A DNA stretch of 64,000 nucleotides from assembly GCA_020055645.1 (NCBI GenBank), contig CM034548.1:36816201-36880200 (forward strand), read 5' to 3'. Position numbers and translations under genes: made by a program. Below the pieces are notes generated by a model. That model did no database searches and was not told the origin of the DNA. It worked only from the letters and a program-made list of their open reading frames with translations. Positions within the stretch are counted from its first letter, which is position 1. Each line of letters begins with the position of its first letter. Below, piece by piece: positions 2,842-58,095 of the stretch. The DNA comes from Tomocerus qinae. Its lineage: Eukaryota; Arthropoda; Collembola; Entomobryomorpha; Tomoceridae.

Positions 2842-5800
2842 TTGGTAGCTCTTTTTAAGTATGTTGATATTCTAATGAAATGTGTTTCTTACTACTAATG
2901 CAGTGTAATGTAAATTGTGATGATGTGTTCAATTTTCTCACTGCCGAAGACCTACACATTTTACGCCGTACTATCAACATCTGCTTTCACATAATTCCTT
3001 TCAATTTTTATGACCCTGTTGACTGGGACACAATTTTTCTAAAACTGAAATTCATGCCTTTTTAAACTATCAGTTTGTTGGCACGTTTTGCATAACTGCC
3101 TGGCGATTACAAAAAGGAAAAACGCGCCGTTCCTTTTTGACAGTTTCATTTTACTGATATTTAACAAATAATATTATTTTAAAGATTATTACAGTAGTAA
3201 TAATCAGCTAATTGTTTCACAAACCGGATATAATACATACACGTACAACGTCATGAGCCTGTTTGTTGCTTTAATGGGGCAAAGTGATATTCAGCAGTAA
3301 ATCATACGCCGATGATACGCTATGTCCAGAATTGTGTGCATGATGTAGCATTAAACAGATTTGTCCAGGGAACACCTTCAGCAGTACCTTTCTAACCTTA
3401 TCACCAGGGCCAGGGTCGCAGTTCTCAATTATGGACAAGGTACTTTGAAATATCTCTTTATGCTACAATATGGTTCCAAATTATAAAACCCGAAGTTTGA
3501 TAGTCTTTTCTGACTTTTGAAAATAATTACGTTTCTTATGCTTGCCGCAATAGTGACAAATTATTCAGAAAAACGAGAATTACTATAGATATGCTATTTT
3601 AGATCCCTTGTAGGCCTAAAATGCTCTACCCTCAGCCTATCTAGGATTCCACGGTAGGCTAGGCCATTTACTCTTCTAGAATAACCCTATTGCTTTTTAG
3701 CACATTATGCAAGTATGTAGTATGTAGTGATGTGACACATGTATATGCATAAACTAAGTATTGCTCCATATATGAAAGCGTCTATTGTCTGTATGAATAG
3801 ACTTGACGACCTGACGTGCGTGGCTTCCTATTGTTCCTTGTCTTCAGAATCTTGGTATGCTCGAAATGCGTAAGTATTACGACATTTTCTGCCTCTGCTC
3901 GCTTCTCTCTATATGCTCTGCTACTTTGTGTGTGTCACAAGAGATTTTCTGATTTCGACTTGAAACGCACTAGTGCTTGTTGTCTATCTCTGTCTAGAAC
4001 TGTCTTTATTCCACGTGTCTCCCGTCTATTCCACAAGATAACCTGAAAATAATTTCAAATTCTCCACTGCTCAATTAAACATTCGGGTAAAATGGTCATT
4101 TGCGAATCTCAAAAGGTAACAACGCAGCTTTATGCATATACTCTTCACTTTCCCTCTTTTGTCAGTCTGCCCAATACGTTCATTCATTAATGAATAATTA
4201 GGGAGTCGGGGAGTGCACGTGGAAGTCGTAAATGGTGCGGGTGGATCATATTTCTCTTTTATGAACCAGAATGTCTAATCATAACATCCTGCCTATCTTT
4301 ACTCTTTCTATTCGGCTTCCTTTAACCATGCTAATGATATTATAAGAAGTTATAATATTACCGTTTACCTTAAACTTTATATAGTAGTGCGTATATAGTA
4401 ATCCTAAGATGACCATCATACTCAGTCGCTGATAGAAAGACATTCTTCAGAAAAAGTATTTAGTGAATTCAATAAATGCTAATTATGAATGTATTTATTT
4501 CATTCACAAAAGGTTCATTTCGCAAAAAAATGAGTAATGAGGATGCTTGTGAGGAATTAGAAAATGTATTTACCAATTTTACCAAAAACTGTTATATTAT
4601 TATATTGTCTCGACTTCTAGTGTAAATTATATTAATTATATTTCACGAACAAGGATTTGTAAATTATGCAAGTTTATAAAGAAAACAATGCATTGAAAAC
4701 GTATTACTTGCGTATCACGTATCAATTTGCTTAAATATGAATAAAGTAGTATTTTGAAACGAATTATACTTCAAAGTTAAGTCAATTTTCTGAACTGTAT
4801 ACAGAAACTTAAAACGAAATAGAAATACATTTGCAGTTTTAGAGCATTTGGTCACCGTAGGAAAATTATTTCATACCTGAGTCGCACATAGTATACATTA
4901 GTAGGTCAAAATTAAATGCCAAATACCCTAACATAACAACAAACTGGTATGTACTAGATCTTCCGACACAAACTATGCCTATTCATAAAATATGCACGAT
5001 CCTAAGAGTGTTTATTTTTGTATCTGAGTTGGTTGGCAGATATGATTTGCTTCATTGTGGCCTCATCTCTTTTCCTTCTACGGACACTAAAGGACCCGAG
5101 GTTTTAGACGAGTGAGTTATTATTTAGTTGGTCAGGTCAACGGTGTGTTGTAAGCCAAATCCGAAAGAAAAACTTTGACCTTAAGCACAACAAAATGGTA
5201 CATGCGTGATAAACCAACACTTAAAAATTGTAGTATTCCTAAAACTTGGGTTTCCATATGCATATTTTTTATTCCAAGGTGAAAATATTTGAAGTTCGAC
5301 AACTTATCAAACAAAAAACGACTGAAAACTTAAATGTTAGCAATATCTAGCTTTGAAAAGGATTTTAGCTACATTTACTTTCAGCACAGATGAAACTATT
5401 TGTTTTGAAGATGTCGAAAGCAGTTATAAAGTGCTAGAAAGAGTTTTGAGCCGCTGCAGGCAAATACAATAGTTGATAATTATCTTGGGTGTTGAATATA
5501 TGTATAAATGCAAGTGGCGGAGTTGTAGTTTTGTGATTTAATGACTCAGCAGTTTTTCAGGAAAATTTTCAATATTGCAAGAGTATAAGCATTACATTGC
5601 AACTTTATGAAAACGTAAGTATCGCAGTATCAAAATTAATAGTAAAAAATAATTACCGCATTTCATATCATAACTAAGAAACAACTTCCTTAGATTCTCC
5701 ATTCGACTTACAAAACGTATATCAGTCCATGAAAGACAACAGTGTTTGTATTTTTGGAAATTTTTCTGTATAAGCTGGGTTAGTAGTTTAAGATGAATTT

Positions 5801-13455: not shown

Positions 13456-14640
13456 TATCAATAGAAAGTTTAGCTTACTAGTTTCAACTAGAGTTGGTAA
13501 GAGCACAGGAGAAATGTTCAATCAAGTGTTGAGATATAAGTACTTATACTTAATACTGGCCAATGAATGAGACAAATACTTAGTCTAAAAGTACAGCTGC
13601 TGTATAGATAATGCTATGTTAATACAAGGAATACCTGAGAACTGCTTTCCTAATGCTTAAAATATGCTAATGATATTTTATTAATTCACTATTAATTGCG
13701 TTTAGCGAGGAGGTAAGGATGTACAGGTGTGTGTGATGACTTGGACTACAAGACGACAAATTGCATTAGTTTCTTCAATTACTTAAACTTTTGCATTTTG
13801 CAGAGAAAATGAAATTTCGCGGATGAAATGTTCTGTCTCCATCTAAAGGTAATTTATGCTTTTTGCTTGCGAGTCAAACTAATTTAATTTTTGTATAAAT
13901 TGTGTAGGTAGCCAATACAATAAATAGTGGGGTACCTATTTTTAGTATTCTTGTTTGCAATTTGAGAGGAAACTTTGTATGATAATGAGACGCGGAGACT
14001 CAAAGGAGTACAAAGTAAAAAGAGTCGACTCAACTCAATTCCGGACACGGAGCAGAAACTCTGTATTTAGGAAGGAGATGAGATGTTTTCTGCAAGAAGG
14101 AAAAAGACAACCAGTCAGACCAGACCAAACTTTAAGACAAGTCAACTCAAGTAGCCCGAGTCAGAAGAAAGATGTGCAAGAGCCGAGTGCAGATTGGCGA
14201 ATAACTGTGTGGTCTCCTCTTCCATCCAATATATACAGCACCAAGCTACTCTGCCTCCTCAGTTCTATTGCAATACTATCCTCTACTACTACTCCGCTAC
14301 TACTGAAACTTTACAAACGGACCTCCTTCCCTACAATATCTTCTAATTTCCAAAACGCATCTCCCTTTTCACACTATAACTAAACACTTCTTACTCTTCT
14401 CCAGCCACATACTACTGCATGACCAGATACATTAGTGTATCTATATCATTAAGGTACTACAAATTATAGGTAAGTACATTATACTCTTAAAACATTTATT
14501 TTCACAACGTATTGTATGATTTACTTATTCCCAAATGTGCAAGAAGCATTATAAGCAATTAAATCTTTATTTCATTAAAAAAAATTTTACACTGTAACAG
14601 ATGGACAGGAAACATTGATATAAGATATGAAAAATTAGGA
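13456..14640. other. Intergenic stretch with one weak 135-codon frame
   Basis: A plus-strand frame runs to 14383 (first ATG near 13979). It is Ser/Thr/Lys-rich, has no recognised domain and reads through imperfect gtcaactcaag-type repeats, so I do not call it a gene. The rest is featureless AT-rich sequence. Confidence 0.4.
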
Positions 14641-14660
14641 AATTAAAAATAATTATACTA

Positions 14661-15406
14661 TCATCCAAATTCATCCGATTTCATCCAAATTCATCCGAAT
14701 TCTTCCGAATTCATCCGAATGCATCCGATTTCATCCGAATTCTTCCGAATTCATCCGAATGCATCCGATTTCATCCGAATTCTTCCGAATTCATCCGAAT
14801 GCATCCGATTTCATCCAAATTCATCCGAATTCATCCAAATTCATCCGAATTCATCCAAATTCATCCGAATTCATCCGAATTCATCCGAATTCATCCAAAT
14901 TCATCCGAATTCATCCAAATTCATCCAAATTCATCCGAATTCATCCGAATTCATCCGAATTCATCCAAATTCATCCGAATTCATCCGAATTCATCCGAAT
15001 TCATCCGAATTCATCCAAATTCATCCAAATTCATCCGAATTCATCCGAATTCATCCGAATTCATCCGAATTCATCCGAATTCATCCGAATTCATCCGAAT
15101 TCATCCGAATTCATCCGAATTCATCCGAATTCATCCGAATTCATCCGAATTCATCCGAATTCATCCGAATTCATCCGAATTCATCCGAATTCATCCGAAT
15201 TCATCCGAATTCATCCGAATTCATCCGAATTCATCCGAATTCATCCGAATTCATCCGAATTCATCCGAATTCATCCGAATTCATCCGAATTCATCCGAAT
15301 TCATCCGAATTCATCCGAATTCATCCGAATTCATCCAAATTCATCCAAATTCATCCAAATTCATCCGAATTCATCCAAATTCATCCAAATTCATCCGAAT
15401 TCATCC
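14661..15406 (+). repeat. 10 bp satellite array (TCATCCGAAT)n, about 75 units
   Basis: The unit tcatccgaat is repeated with no insertion or deletion from about 14661 to 15406. Almost all variation is G to A at the single CpG (ccgaa to ccaaa). A run of 30 identical units fills 15031-15330 and variants crowd both edges. The left edge has a higher-order 40 bp block with gcatccgatt and tcttccgaat units, three copies long. GAATTC occurs at most unit joins. Because 10 is not a multiple of 3, all three forward frames stay open and encode the same 10-residue motif. Those 206-234 codon frames are by-products, not genes. Confidence 0.97.
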
Positions 15407-15409
15407 TGG

Positions 15410-17490
15410 ATTGGACTGAGTAAATTGCAATAGATGTTAAATGGACTTGCGATTGCCATTAGGCCCAAGCACGTACTGGTACAAAAGGACTTGTACAAAT
15501 GGTGACTACAATTTGTCGCCGTTTTCAAAAAAATCTTCGTTTCTGTAATTATGGAATGGGATTGATGCGTTTCCTCTACACTCTTCTAAATATCATTTGC
15601 AATTTGCACACATTTAAAGTCACATTAAAAAATGTATATCTTGATATGAAACGCATTTAAAATGTATAAACTACTATTATACATCCATAGTGTTTTAGTA
15701 CAATCTGAGTTTAGTTCCAATCCAAAACAAGCTGTAATTCAATATATAAATCTTTAATCCATTGTCAATCCTTTACAGAGTCTTGACAGTGACACATTTT
15801 TGATTTCCTTTTTATTTAATTTCTGAGCTTATATTTAGTTGAAATATTTTCAGTAATTACTTTCCTCTTTTTTCAGAGTCTATAGCAATCATTTTTCATG
15901 AATACTTTCATGTTCTTTGTAAGTATTGTATCCCAAAAGCCGTCTTTATTCTAATCTTATATCCCTATAACTATTTACTCGTTATATGCATGACATTTAA
16001 GCAATCTAAATGCCTACTACAGTATAATACTCCAATAAAGACATTTGAGCACTTTTAATTAAAAACTGCCTTCGTTCTTCGATCTCGGCAGCTCAAAAAC
16101 TAAAAGCTAAGCTACTTAAATATAAAGAAATGATGGGTTATAGCAATATAGTATATATATTCTGATTTTGTTCGTTATTTTCAATGGTATTATGCAACGA
16201 CTTTTATTTTCTTATGTAAGAAATAAGAAAAATGTCACAATTGAATTGTAATACTAAGATCTAACTAAAAGGTTCTTCGAAATAAGTAGGACTTCCCTTG
16301 GGAAAACTATACATAAAATAATCTTCCATAGAGAAGGACTACATTGAATGATTGAAAGATATTCATTGTATATTATATATTATATCCTACGGAGATGTGT
16401 ATGTAAGTATTTAACATCTTACGGGTGTGAGAAATCAGTTTTAAATCTAGACGAACGATAAGTAAAATTGTAATAATGTTTTATCCAAGATGGCCTGCAT
16501 CGTTATCGTTCAATTGAATCCTAGGTTGAACTCGGCCTATTCCCGGTGTACTGTAGCATGAATGGCAGTGTACATGGATATTTTCGCGTAATGTGTAGCT
16601 TGAGTTGCCTTGCCTTTAGTCATTTTTGCATTACTTCTTGTTCTTACACAGAAGACAAGACATTACTATTACGTGCATTGCAGTTTTCAGTCTTAACGTT
16701 TGGAGTTCTTATTGTTATTGTAGTCCTTGTCTTAGTTTATCTCTATTTTTTAGTGTGGTAGATGAACAGGGAGAGTAGAATAAGAATGCTACTTATGTTG
16801 TGGGTCTGTAGATGTTCGGAGTAAATACGTATTATGTGAGACTGGAATATATAGCTTTGTTGTAATAATAATATGGAATGGACGGAGGAACATTGAGTTG
16901 GAAGTTGGAAATGGAATGTCGGAAAATGGATTTTTCTGGGTGTCTAATAAGAAGGCTGGATGCACGTGGCTGAATCCGCTCGTCTCGGCTCAATTCTTAC
17001 GTTTTCTGAATACCCGAGAATCAAAGCTTTTACGTCTAATAACCAGCAGTATATTAACATTAGTTTGCTGTCATGTAGTCGTAGTTACTTACCTACTTAC
17101 AAAATATATTTAATAGACATACTCTGAATATACGTCACAATGAATTTTCCCTTTGTTCTACCTACTTGCATTCACCAGAATTAACTATCCCTATAGCGTA
17201 AATACAAATACAGAAGATTCCAATTCTGCACTAGACGCTTTGCCATCCAATTTGTACCACTCACCATATGACTAATGTCAAAATATCACCCTTAGTACCT
17301 AATTAGTCACTCTTCCAAAGCTCAGTAATTAAATGTTTGTCATTTATTTATGTTGCAATAAAATTCCACAGAAACGACGTAATGGCAAGAGTAGGTGTAT
17401 AAATACAGTAAGTGCTTCATGAATCCATTTTTAAAGAAGAGACTCGATCCTGTTTTGTACATCTTTGCGAGAAACTACTCTACACATACA
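15410..17490. other. AT-rich stretch without recognised genes
   Basis: Two 71-codon plus frames (16546-16761, 16898-17113) carry hydrophobic C-termini but have no splice support or known domain. Nothing else stands out. Confidence 0.5.
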
Positions 17491-52899: not shown

Positions 52900-53155
52900 A
52901 TCTTCAAAATCAATGGAAAATCAAAATAGATTAATGTTGACTATGCAAAATCAACAGAAAATCAAAATAGATTAATGTTGACTACGAAATCAACAGAAAA
53001 TCATAAATAATGTTGACCATGAAAATCAACAGAAAATCATAATTAATGTTGACCATGAAAATCAACAGAAAATCATAATTAATGTTGACCATGAAAATCA
53101 ACAGAAAATCATAATTAATGTTGACCATGAAAATCAACAGAACATCCAAATTGGT
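52900..53155 (+). repeat. 36 bp tandem repeat, about 6 copies
   Basis: Unit tgttgaccatgaaaatcaac plus agaaaatcataattaa. Exact starts at 53011, 53047, 53083 and 53119; earlier copies are shorter and more diverged. It lies upstream of the Tudor exons. Confidence 0.92.
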
Positions 53156-53339
53156 TAATATTAAATGTCAAAATCAAAAGGAAATCACAATTGATTAATA
53201 ATGAGTATCAAAAACATGTTGCATGTTGTTATTTAAATAATATTGTAATACCAAAGCTATCTCATCAATTTTATGAAACTCATAATTATATTATTATGCT
53301 TTGTTTTCTGAGTTACCACCAGAGGTCACTACTTTTTTC

Positions 53340-55162: not shown

Positions 55163-57646
55163 TTACTTCTCAATCTTTTGTTGCTTTTCTTGTTTAATGT
55201 CGTTTTCGTATTTTGTGTCGACGGGTTCAATTTTTGGCTGCCAAATGAAGTTCCATCCCAATAGACCAGTAACAAAAAATTGAACGCGTTTCTTTTCCAT
55301 CACCATGTCCTTGAAAATAGCCGATTGAAAGAATCTTTTCATGTGAATGCTGTCAATTGCATTTTCAACCATGTAAATTGGAGACATGTTCGTTGTCTTC
55401 CAGAAACCAAGGATTGCAATGCTTAGAGCCACCATCTTGTTTCTCTTTGAGGAGACCCGATAACGGCGCTTTATGGCTTTCCTAAAAATAGAATAGTCTG
55501 AAAAATAAGCAAGCTTTAATAATAGGCTTACTAATAAATGATTTCCGCCTACTTATCTGCAGTAAACTTGTATGCGTCCACACCAAAATTAATTTCCTTA
55601 CGTTCGGAATCTACGCTGCACAAACCCTAAAAGTAAATTCATAGTTAAATACCTCAAAAAAACTCTCAAATTGTGCTACCAATGTTATGTTAATTCAACA
55701 TCATATTATTTACTAAAATTAAGCTTTATCTATGATGGCAAAGTTATTCAAAACTACACAAATGGTACAACTAATTACGTCAACACCCATTGCTGAACAG
55801 CAGTTGGCGTAGAACTTTTCAAATTCTTCAGCACATTTCCTTTCTGCGATGTTGACCTTTGCCTTTGTTTCTTCCATCTCTTTATTTTTTATCTAAACAC
55901 AAACATCAAAAACATTACTTTAAAAAATCACATTTAATAATTATTGTTTGCCAAACTTGAAATTGAATGCATAGAAATTACAAAAATTCATTTTCTATTC
56001 ACATGACACTAAACAATATTGTAATTTTCATTTTTTTCTATCCGAAGTTTGGATAGTTTCATCATTTTAGAAAAATTAACTTAATATTCTATACCTCCAA
56101 CTGCACTTTTCGTTTGTAATTTAATAAAATTGTCTCTTCAGTGACTGCTTCCGGATTAGATGTTTGGAACAATTGGAAGTCCTGTCAAGAATAAGAATAA
56201 TAATATTTAATTACTCAAAATATATCTTGAATCTATATCATTATTACAATAGAATTCCAAATTGATGTATATAACTAATATAAATACGTACCTCTATCTC
56301 TTTTTTCAACTTGTCAATTTCTGCAGCCAGAAATATATTTCTTTTATAATCAAACCTGATTATAGTTCCCATCAGTCTCTCAAATTCTGTATACCTAACA
56401 TAAAATAAAAAGGTTATTATTTTTTCAGGATTAGTGAAATTAATAATATTTATATAGTACTCTGAATCATACAAATAACATTTCAAACATAGACATTATT
56501 TATAGGTAAATGAATAAATAATTAAAATGAGTTCAGACCAGTATTGAGAGGATTTTGTCAAATAAAATTTCAGAATGTTTTGAGTGATGATAAACGGTAC
56601 TCCACTCAATTTAGGGAATTCAAGTTGTTCATAGATACGAGATATATAATCACTACTCGCCAACATTGAATTTGAGTTCAGCACTTTCTTCGTACGCCAA
56701 ATTGGTCCCAGCAGTTTTCCGTCCTGCACTTGTATCTTTCGAATGATTTGTAGTGTATCACCGTACATATTTCTTAAATCCGAATTTGGTGGGATGGCCA
56801 CGGTTAGCTTAATGATCGCTATTTCAGTTTTTCGCTTTATAAGATCTGTGAAAACATAAAATTTTTAGCATTTAAAGGTTTGTACACAGATAAAGTATCG
56901 CGATGCTTAATTTAGTAAGGCATAAAACGAATGGCGACTTAGACCATTTCATTCTAATTATGTATAATTTAAGATAAATAAACAAAATTTAATTTCGATT
57001 TCTGGTTACCTTGTATGTTGTTGTACCCGAAAAAATTAATGACTTCGTCTTGACCTAGTCCTAATAAAATGGCCAGTACTATTGTCGTTTTCCCAGTAGA
57101 TCGTAATCCACAAACGAAGTTTTCAGACATAAATGAGTATGAAATGTTATCGAATCTCATAAAATTTTTGAATTCCACCGCTTTGATACGTGACACCCAT
57201 AACTATGTAAATAAATTCAGACAGAAAATTCAAATTAACCAACAACCAATTCAGTTTTGCAAAGCCGTATTGAGGGGGGCATTGGGGGCAAATGCCCCCC
57301 CTCCAAAATCCAAGAAAAGAATTTTTTTCTCAAAATTCCAAAACATTTCGCGCTTGCGCAATTTTATGTGATTTTTGGGCTATTTTTGACTCATTTTAGA
57401 CAAAATAAGGCAAAATTTTTCACCCATGATATTATTGCCTCCTCCGAAATCGACTTCTAAATACGGTACTGAGTTTTGGTACACAATCAACAGTACTGTA
57501 CACAGCCATAATAATCATTTAGTACAAATGACAATACAAATTAAAAAATTAGTTGACTAATAACATGTTATTACCTCTTTGTTCGGAAGCTCTGCCAACG
57601 GTCCTTGATGACTAATCATTGGTGCTCTAGATTCAGTCCTTTCCAT
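55163..57646 (-). CDS. Degenerate, hinge-less SMC6-like protein, 8 exons, 422 codons
   Basis: Exons: 57646-57575, 57202-57010, 56845-56539, 56394-56292, 56181-56095, 55892-55779, 55626-55553, 55481-55163. Every join has GT/AG and keeps phase (1269 bases). The N-terminal head is SMC6-type: RIKAVEFKNFMRF, P-loop GLRSTGKTT (residues 56-64), ILLGLG, YGDTLQIIRKI, and Q-loop FIITQN (Q177), where SMC6 has 'ILTQ'. About 95 residues of charged helix (LAAEIDKLKKEIE, NIAERKCAEEFEKF) lead straight into a C-terminal head: SIAILGFWKTTNMSPIYMVE. The C-loop LSGGE is replaced by VSSKRN (326-331) and Walker B D-E by E-N (356-357). SMC6 normally has about 1,050-1,100 residues; introns here are 71-372 bp, leaving no room for hinge and arms. 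It is probably not an active ATPase. It may be a decoy subunit, a new function, or a young pseudogene with an intact frame. Confidence 0.7.
57261..57471. mobile_element. 211 bp TIR MITE in intron 1 of the SMC6-like gene
   Basis: Ends CAAAGCCGTATTGAG and, inverted, CAGTACCGTATTTAG share CA..CCGTATT-AG. AGTTTTG directly flanks both sides (57254-57260 and 57472-57478) as a target duplication. A ggggggcattgggggcaaatgcccccc palindromic core lies near the left end (quoted in parts: gggggcaaatgccccc). Duplication length and tips suggest a hAT-like element. Confidence 0.75.
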
Positions 57647-57995: not shown

Positions 57996-58095
57996 NNNNN
58001 NNNNNNNNNNNNNNNNNNNNNNNNNNNNNNNNNNNNNNNNNNNNNNNNNNNNNNNNNNNNNNNNNNNNNNNNNNNNNNNNNNNNNNNNNNNNNNN
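57996..58095. other. Assembly gap, 100 N
   Basis: Exactly 100 N, the usual placeholder for a gap of unknown size. Distance and even adjacency across it are uncertain, so the SMC6-like gene and the genes to the right may not be true neighbours. Confidence 0.99.

Follow-up and report, generated by a model that had tools for sequence, protein, structure and literature searches.

The gene on the minus strand at 57646-55163 of the window (the whole stretch of 64,000 nucleotides analysed here, on contig C3 of the 334 Mb assembly of Tomocerus qinae) raises the question of what a protein might do that carries both halves of an SMC-type ATPase head and very little between them. Eight GT-AG-spliced exons join into a 422-codon open frame with no internal stop, all seven introns are GT-AG, and neither the frame nor any of the splice sites shows damage. 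This model was built by hand, and the same exons were returned by a spliced aligner queried with the hand-built protein, in agreement with the eight canonically spliced exons and single 422-residue frame of the initial annotation, which had been made from the letters of the window alone. The exons, all on the minus strand, are as follows.

57575-57646, minus: exon 1, 24 codons; family motif P-x-[IV]-x-x-[QK]-G-P-[LM], here PMISHQGPL at 57622-57596
57010-57202, minus: exon 2, N-terminal head; Walker A GLRSTGKT at 57109-57086
56539-56845, minus: exon 3, remainder of the N-terminal head; Q-loop region TQN at 56585-56577
56292-56394, minus: exon 4, head-proximal coil-like stretch (neck); also in the models of L029, L031, L032, L033 and L035
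56095-56181, minus: exon 5, 29 codons, phase 0-0; missing from the L029, L032 and L035 models; site of the L031 stop
55779-55892, minus: exon 6, short helical stretch running into the C-terminal head
55553-55626, minus: exon 7, beginning of the C-terminal head
55163-55481, minus: exon 8, C-terminal head; SSKRN at 55453-55439 (signature position); SPIYMVEN at 55384-55361 (Walker B position); stop codon

The neck, to which exon 4 corresponds, is the part of SMC6 that Nse4 binds. In the encoded protein, Walker A (GLRSTGKT) spans residues 56-63 and TQN occupies the Q-loop position at residues 176-178, while the signature position reads SSKRN (residues 327-331) versus LSGGE in SMC6 and the Walker B position reads SPIYMVEN (residues 350-357) versus SPFRCLDE. 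The exchanges of SGGE for SKRN and of DE for EN, next to a retained SMC-type Walker A, were thus correctly noticed at the outset. The head halves are separated, from residue 192 to about 290, by a coil-like stretch of slightly fewer than 100 residues, close to the 95 first estimated. An SMC hinge is ~190 residues long, and the interval between exons 3 and 6 measures 646 bp with a longest stop-free run of 83 codons. Because these 646 bp offer at most 83 open codons, no hinge is hidden there, in keeping with the hinge-less protein first described. Around the gene, a 100-base assembly gap (57996-58095) lies ~350 bp upstream of the start codon and leaves the promoter side incomplete, and intron 1 holds a repeat-like stretch (57259-57421) with related copies in two of the loci described below, L034 and L029.

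The window sequence by itself gives weak evidence of its kinship. Against Pfam it reached 18.7 bits with SMC_N (cut-off 40) and 13.7 bits with AAA_23 (cut-off 27), and the sole match that phmmer listed for it in the PDB was a repeat protein, 8vd6_A ('CAP REPEAT'). For that reason the SMC assignment needs a family profile, which we took from an alignment (A1) of five members, namely the window copy, L035, L029, L032 and L033, the last two hand-edited. The best PDB match of this profile was the SMC6 chain 9lwi_A (E 4.9e-8), which we take to be human SMC6, followed by four further SMC6 sequences, presumably from yeast, at E 7e-7 to 1.1e-6 and then by SMC5 at E 1.6e-4 to 1.9e-4; RecN was not among the profile's PDB matches up to E 10. 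The C-terminal half also aligned, in order, with the signature region of the same SMC6 chain, though the match was weak (8.1 bits). Introns 2 (NNIQ[1]DLIK, phase 1) and 3 (SSQY[2]WYTEF, phase 2) of the window gene, which flank exon 3, have the same position and phase in SMC6A, a full-length SMC6 gene of this genome. The SMC5 gene shares neither, its intron nearest to intron 2 being of phase 0 and a few residues off, and the model of SMC6B, a second full-length SMC6-like gene, shares intron 2 only, in a model that holds one frameshift and is hence uncertain. A tree groups the six mini sequences used firmly (100/100) on a long stem, without fixing their place among SMC5 and SMC6 or putting them inside SMC6. 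The case for an SMC6 origin therefore comes from profile rank and shared introns, not from the tree, and on these grounds a derivation of the family from SMC6 rather than SMC5 is supported. The SMC6-type label first given to the gene fits this outcome, in which SMC6 ranks best, SMC5 is weaker and RecN does not appear.

A search of the genome for full-length SMC6, an idea already raised in the initial annotation, found SMC6A at C1:105.33 Mb with intact motifs (GENGSGKS, LSGGER, FHVLDEFD) and SMC6B (L058, C1:89634800-89641200; 89.64 Mb) with GVNGSGKS, LSGGER, FHIIDEID and a hinge-like region. The hinge regions of the two match each other at E 2.8e-5, and that of SMC6A matches the human hinge only at E 0.08. 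The window protein resembles both in head sequence, and its gene shares two intron positions and phases with SMC6A and one with SMC6B, but LSGGER, the Walker B DE and the hinge-region matches are theirs, and the window protein has none of them. SMC5, at C1:94.25 Mb, also has intact motifs. Elsewhere in the genome, SMC1 occurs at three places (L038, L039 and L040, with open frames of 1072-1087 codons, the frame of L040 shifting after the signature motif), SMC2 at two (L042, L043) and an SMC3-like head half at each of L041 and L044, and SMC4 is present; the names SMC1 to SMC4 are our own assignments from characteristic motifs. A Pfam search with PF08743 (Nse4_C) placed six Nse4 loci above the cut-off, four of them within ~31 kb on C3.

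C2:38549969: Nse4 locus
C3:8125358: Nse4 locus
C3:8133357: Nse4 locus (L061)
C3:8143265: Nse4 locus
C3:8155948: Nse4 locus
C2:3978176: Nse4 locus

One Nse4 locus was read and confirmed (E 4.3e-14). A profile search for Nse1 gave three weak matches (E 0.12 to 0.5), and one for Nse3 (MAGE) gave none here, the MAGE search being blank in every control genome as well and hence uninformative. Six Nse4 loci are compatible both with a separate system and with multiple copies of an SMC5/6 regulatory set.

The window copy is not a lone gene, a point beyond the reach of the initial annotation: a protein search of the genome places it among nine loci or more, all such counts being lower bounds.

C3, 30.89 Mb: L034, 3′ half missing
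C3, 35.55 Mb: L029, intact, 361 aa, seven exons, without exon 5
C3, 35.56 Mb: L030, 5′ half missing
C3, 35.61 Mb: L031, one stop, in exon 5 (in-frame skipping possible), and a somewhat early end
C3, 36.87 Mb: the window gene
C3, 40.27 Mb: L032, nearly intact; exon 1/2 junction not settled in the model
C3, 42.19 Mb: L033, two stops
C1, 70.89 Mb: L035, intact, 368 aa, seven exons, without exon 5
C1, 136.97 Mb: L036, broken within

Genome searches with the window, L035 and L032 queries gave no tenth locus, one match at E 7.2 being disregarded. Four of the nine loci are intact or nearly so and five are lesioned, and the nearest relatives of the window copy, L030, L031, L033 and L036, are each interrupted by stops or frameshifts. 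Both head halves are retained at seven loci, none of which has space for a hinge. The compact layout of the window gene recurs at L029, L031, L032, L033 and L035, and the neck stretch is present in all six gene models that reach that far, with the arms gone. The exon 1 motif can be read at every one of the eight loci with a recognised exon 1, L030 being without its 5′ end; it was not seen upstream of SMC6A, in a short stretch searched for open frames of at least 45 codons. Two members, L035 (31.8 bits) and L032 (34.5 bits), pass the AAA_23 cut-off on their own. A mobile element was considered as the vehicle of the L029/L035 duplication and rejected, since no terminal inverted repeats of at least 14 exact bases were found near the ends of the duplicate; one inverted-repeat pair in L029 has one arm within the gene and the other a long way downstream. 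Within its enlarged intron 1, L031 contains an element with inverted ends (a TIR pair, 3077-4685 of that locus).

Across the five aligned members, the Gly-Lys-Ser/Thr of Walker A is retained without exception, including in those ~36% identical to the window copy, and the first Gly, the Gly-Lys and the middle Ser are invariant. Its retention in such distant members suggests that nucleotide binding is under selection. The signature Gly-Gly is absent from all five, with the two Ser at and before the signature Ser position invariant, and the Walker B Asp has become Glu in each of the four that keep the region, where the catalytic Glu is replaced by N, S, C or G. Because these losses are common to the aligned members, their common ancestor was probably already without the catalytic motifs. 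The Q-loop of the initial annotation stands for the window copy and for L031, which keep the Gln, and not for the other four aligned members, which have Pro (three) or Lys (one) at this position; with the Gln lost in four of five, ATP binding is weaker as a shared property.

Coding constraint shows in the indels. Between L029 and L035 there are no frame-breaking indels in 1083 bp of exon versus 27 in 1781 bp of intron (p 6e-6), and between the window copy and L031 none in 1209 bp of exon versus 7 in 822 bp of intron (Fisher p 0.0018), the latter count covering six of the seven introns and leaving out intron 1, whose lengths are too different. The window gene model is not a product of chance, because its exon order and phases recur at other loci and its exons are far poorer in indels than its introns. 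For substitutions, the L029/L035 pair gives dN/dS 0.31 (bootstrap 0.19-0.47; dS 0.216, dN 0.067), window/L031 0.59 (0.34-0.94), window/L033 0.26 (0.17-0.37) at a dS of 1.2, and L031/L033 0.24; the rows for window/L035 and window/L029 were set aside as saturated in dS. When changes were polarised, the synonymous and nonsynonymous counts, all of them small, were 4 and 14 on the window branch, 9 and 18 on that of L031, and 7 and 18 unassigned. Indels, and dN/dS clearly for one pair, show a family that stayed coding and constrained after the loss of its catalytic motifs. Constraint on the window copy itself appears supported by the indels and not by the substitutions on its own branch, where 4 synonymous and 14 nonsynonymous changes are close to neutral proportions, and this copy could have recently lost constraint. 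The undisrupted frame had been taken to argue for function or very recent origin; very recent origin misfits a family whose aligned members have their motif losses in common.

We give an even chance to the reading in which the product of the window gene is an SMC6-type head, hinge-less and catalytically dead, that restrains SMC5/6 as a regulatory or 'poison' head, and by analogy with SMCL-1 of C. elegans (below) the ATP-binding, non-hydrolysing decoy or regulator proposed at the outset appears to be the best-supported reading. Building on the observed gene structure, homology, family, motif losses and coding constraint, we infer the folding, ATP binding, partner choice and direction of regulation of the mini head along the following lines. 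A full-length SMC6 gene would have lost its arms and hinge, giving rise to the mini family, which then multiplied in this lineage. The two halves would fold into a single ABC head that binds ATP through Walker A and, with another residue for the catalytic Glu and Glu for the Walker B Asp, should be unable to hydrolyse it. Such a head could present no normal signature motif to a partner; the signature motif of SMC5 could meet the ATP-bound mini head at one site, and the second site would be incomplete. By occupying the head face of SMC5, or Nse4 at the neck, or both, the mini head might lock SMC5/6 in a state without hydrolysis or exclude SMC6 from it, much as is proposed for SMCL-1 and condensin. 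The 'SR' mutation of yeast is presumably located in the signature motif. It blocks head engagement and abolishes salt-stable DNA binding, according to passages of PMC8327961, and heads without a signature motif may therefore not engage SMC5 in the ordinary way. The same passages describe hinge-less Smc5(EQ) and Smc6(EQ)/Nse4N sub-complexes that co-isolate with ATP (PMC8327961), so that a hinge-less dead SMC6 head can in principle meet an SMC5 head, an encounter that loss of the signature may weaken.

Several other explanations bear on the same observations. An annotation artefact, in which hinge and arms sit in unrecognised exons, is highly improbable: SMC arms and hinges diverge fast, and the SMC_hinge profile (PF06470), which matched none of the nine family loci, failed as well on the hinges of SMC5, SMC6A and SMC6B, yet the gap between exons 3 and 6 is too short, as described above, and five other members are similarly compact. 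The window copy is also rather unlikely to be a recent pseudogene, so far undamaged, of a once-working family. Its branch has the near-neutral counts given above, its closest relatives are all damaged and its dN/dS against L031 is 0.59, which would suit a pseudogene, but the exons of that same pair are free of frame-breaking indels where the introns have seven, and the full frame and every splice site remain whole. Nucleotide binding might alternatively play no part, with the head-proximal coil titrating Nse4 or the head titrating SMC5 as an ATP-independent competitor. The neck kept in six models while the arms are gone, the signature Gly-Gly lost from all five aligned members and the Q-loop Gln from four would all agree with such a competitor, which we consider unlikely in view of the Gly-Lys-Ser/Thr of Walker A kept in all five, even at ~36% identity.

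The remaining alternatives turn on the Nse4 expansion. Mini heads might pair with some of the expanded Nse4 kleisins and be structural ATP-sensing subunits, and not inhibitors, of a lineage-specific SMC5/6-like machine directed, for example, against viral or transposon DNA or at a specialised chromosome process, a possibility we hold only tentatively. The Nse4 copies share the genome with SMC6A, SMC6B and nine mini loci, and lesioned mini copies are numerous. Many lesioned copies are seen in gene families under conflict. Passages of PMC10586767 describe Smc5/6 as restricting extrachromosomal viral DNA and as a target of viral proteins. Against this, the co-expansion of Nse4 and mini heads may be coincidence. 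A more specific proposal, which we regard as distinctly doubtful, is that mini-SMC6 heads and expanded Nse4 make up a second, arm-less, ATP-gated SMC5/6-type system without a hinge-to-hinge dimer, directed at mobile or viral DNA or serving some specialised chromosome process.

For the favoured reading, a regulatory head that restrains SMC5/6, the closest natural parallel is SMCL-1 of C. elegans, which, in the passages of Chao et al. 2017 (PMC5373644) on which we draw, is without hinge or coil, keeps Walker A, has a degenerate signature and has lost the catalytic Walker B Glu. These passages report that it binds condensin SMC subunits, that its overexpression is harmful, that without it a weak condensin mutant is partly rescued, that it probably restrains condensin and that it is confined to some Caenorhabditis species (PMC5373644). 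Likenesses to the mini family on this account are the short length, the N- and C-terminal head halves without a hinge, the kept Walker A and the lost signature and catalytic Glu, as well as the restriction to a lineage in a species with a duplicated full-length SMC gene, which is SMC-4 for SMCL-1 (PMC5373644) and SMC6 here. In contrast, SMCL-1 binds condensin and its spread is discussed in those passages together with SMC-4 and the duplicate DPY-27 (PMC5373644), whereas the mini family is SMC6-derived, counts nine loci with many lesions, retains a short coil, has Glu for the Walker B Asp and shares an exon 1 motif. An origin independent of Caenorhabditis SMCL-1 is likely from the best match to SMC6 and the introns shared with SMC6A.

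Other systems agree in part. The engineered yeast Smc6(EQ)/Nse4N of PMC8327961 is likewise a hinge-less SMC6 head without its catalytic Glu and associates with hinge-less Smc5(EQ) in the presence of ATP, but EQ is the sole change named in the passages of that source, and the signature motif is presumably intact. SMCHD1, which the passages of PMC5373644 mention as a regulator and as a truncated relative of SMC proteins, has the reverse truncation, resembling the SMC hinge only. In the open-licence literature searched, no natural hinge-less SMC pseudo-ATPase other than SMCL-1, and no hinge-less SMC6 relative, was found; PMC12629237, in the passages concerned, describes SMCL-1 and adds no other case. 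The family is neither ordinary SMC6 nor mere debris, and we read it as a new, multi-copy, SMC6-derived variant of the SMCL-1 kind, with a function that we infer. It looks like an SMCL-1-type case on another SMC complex, in another phylum and in several copies. If mini heads do restrain SMC5/6, they would be a natural tool for how head engagement without hydrolysis controls the complex; if mini heads and Nse4 copies form a separate system, SMC machines could work without arms.

Around the window gene, five adjoining pieces of open reading frame had no Pfam match better than E 0.05. Copies of mitochondrial COX1 lie in a chromosome-size contig, at L045 (C1:36670928-36672268) and at C1 139.1-139.9 Mb, as nuclear insertions or through misassembly. 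COX1 reads without stops when translated with the invertebrate mitochondrial code, our choice of table, and has a collembolan look. The window also contains a tandem array of 36-41 bp units at 52905-53209 and, at 14631-15433, a tandem repeat that is open in three frames and reads HPNSSEFIRI over and over.
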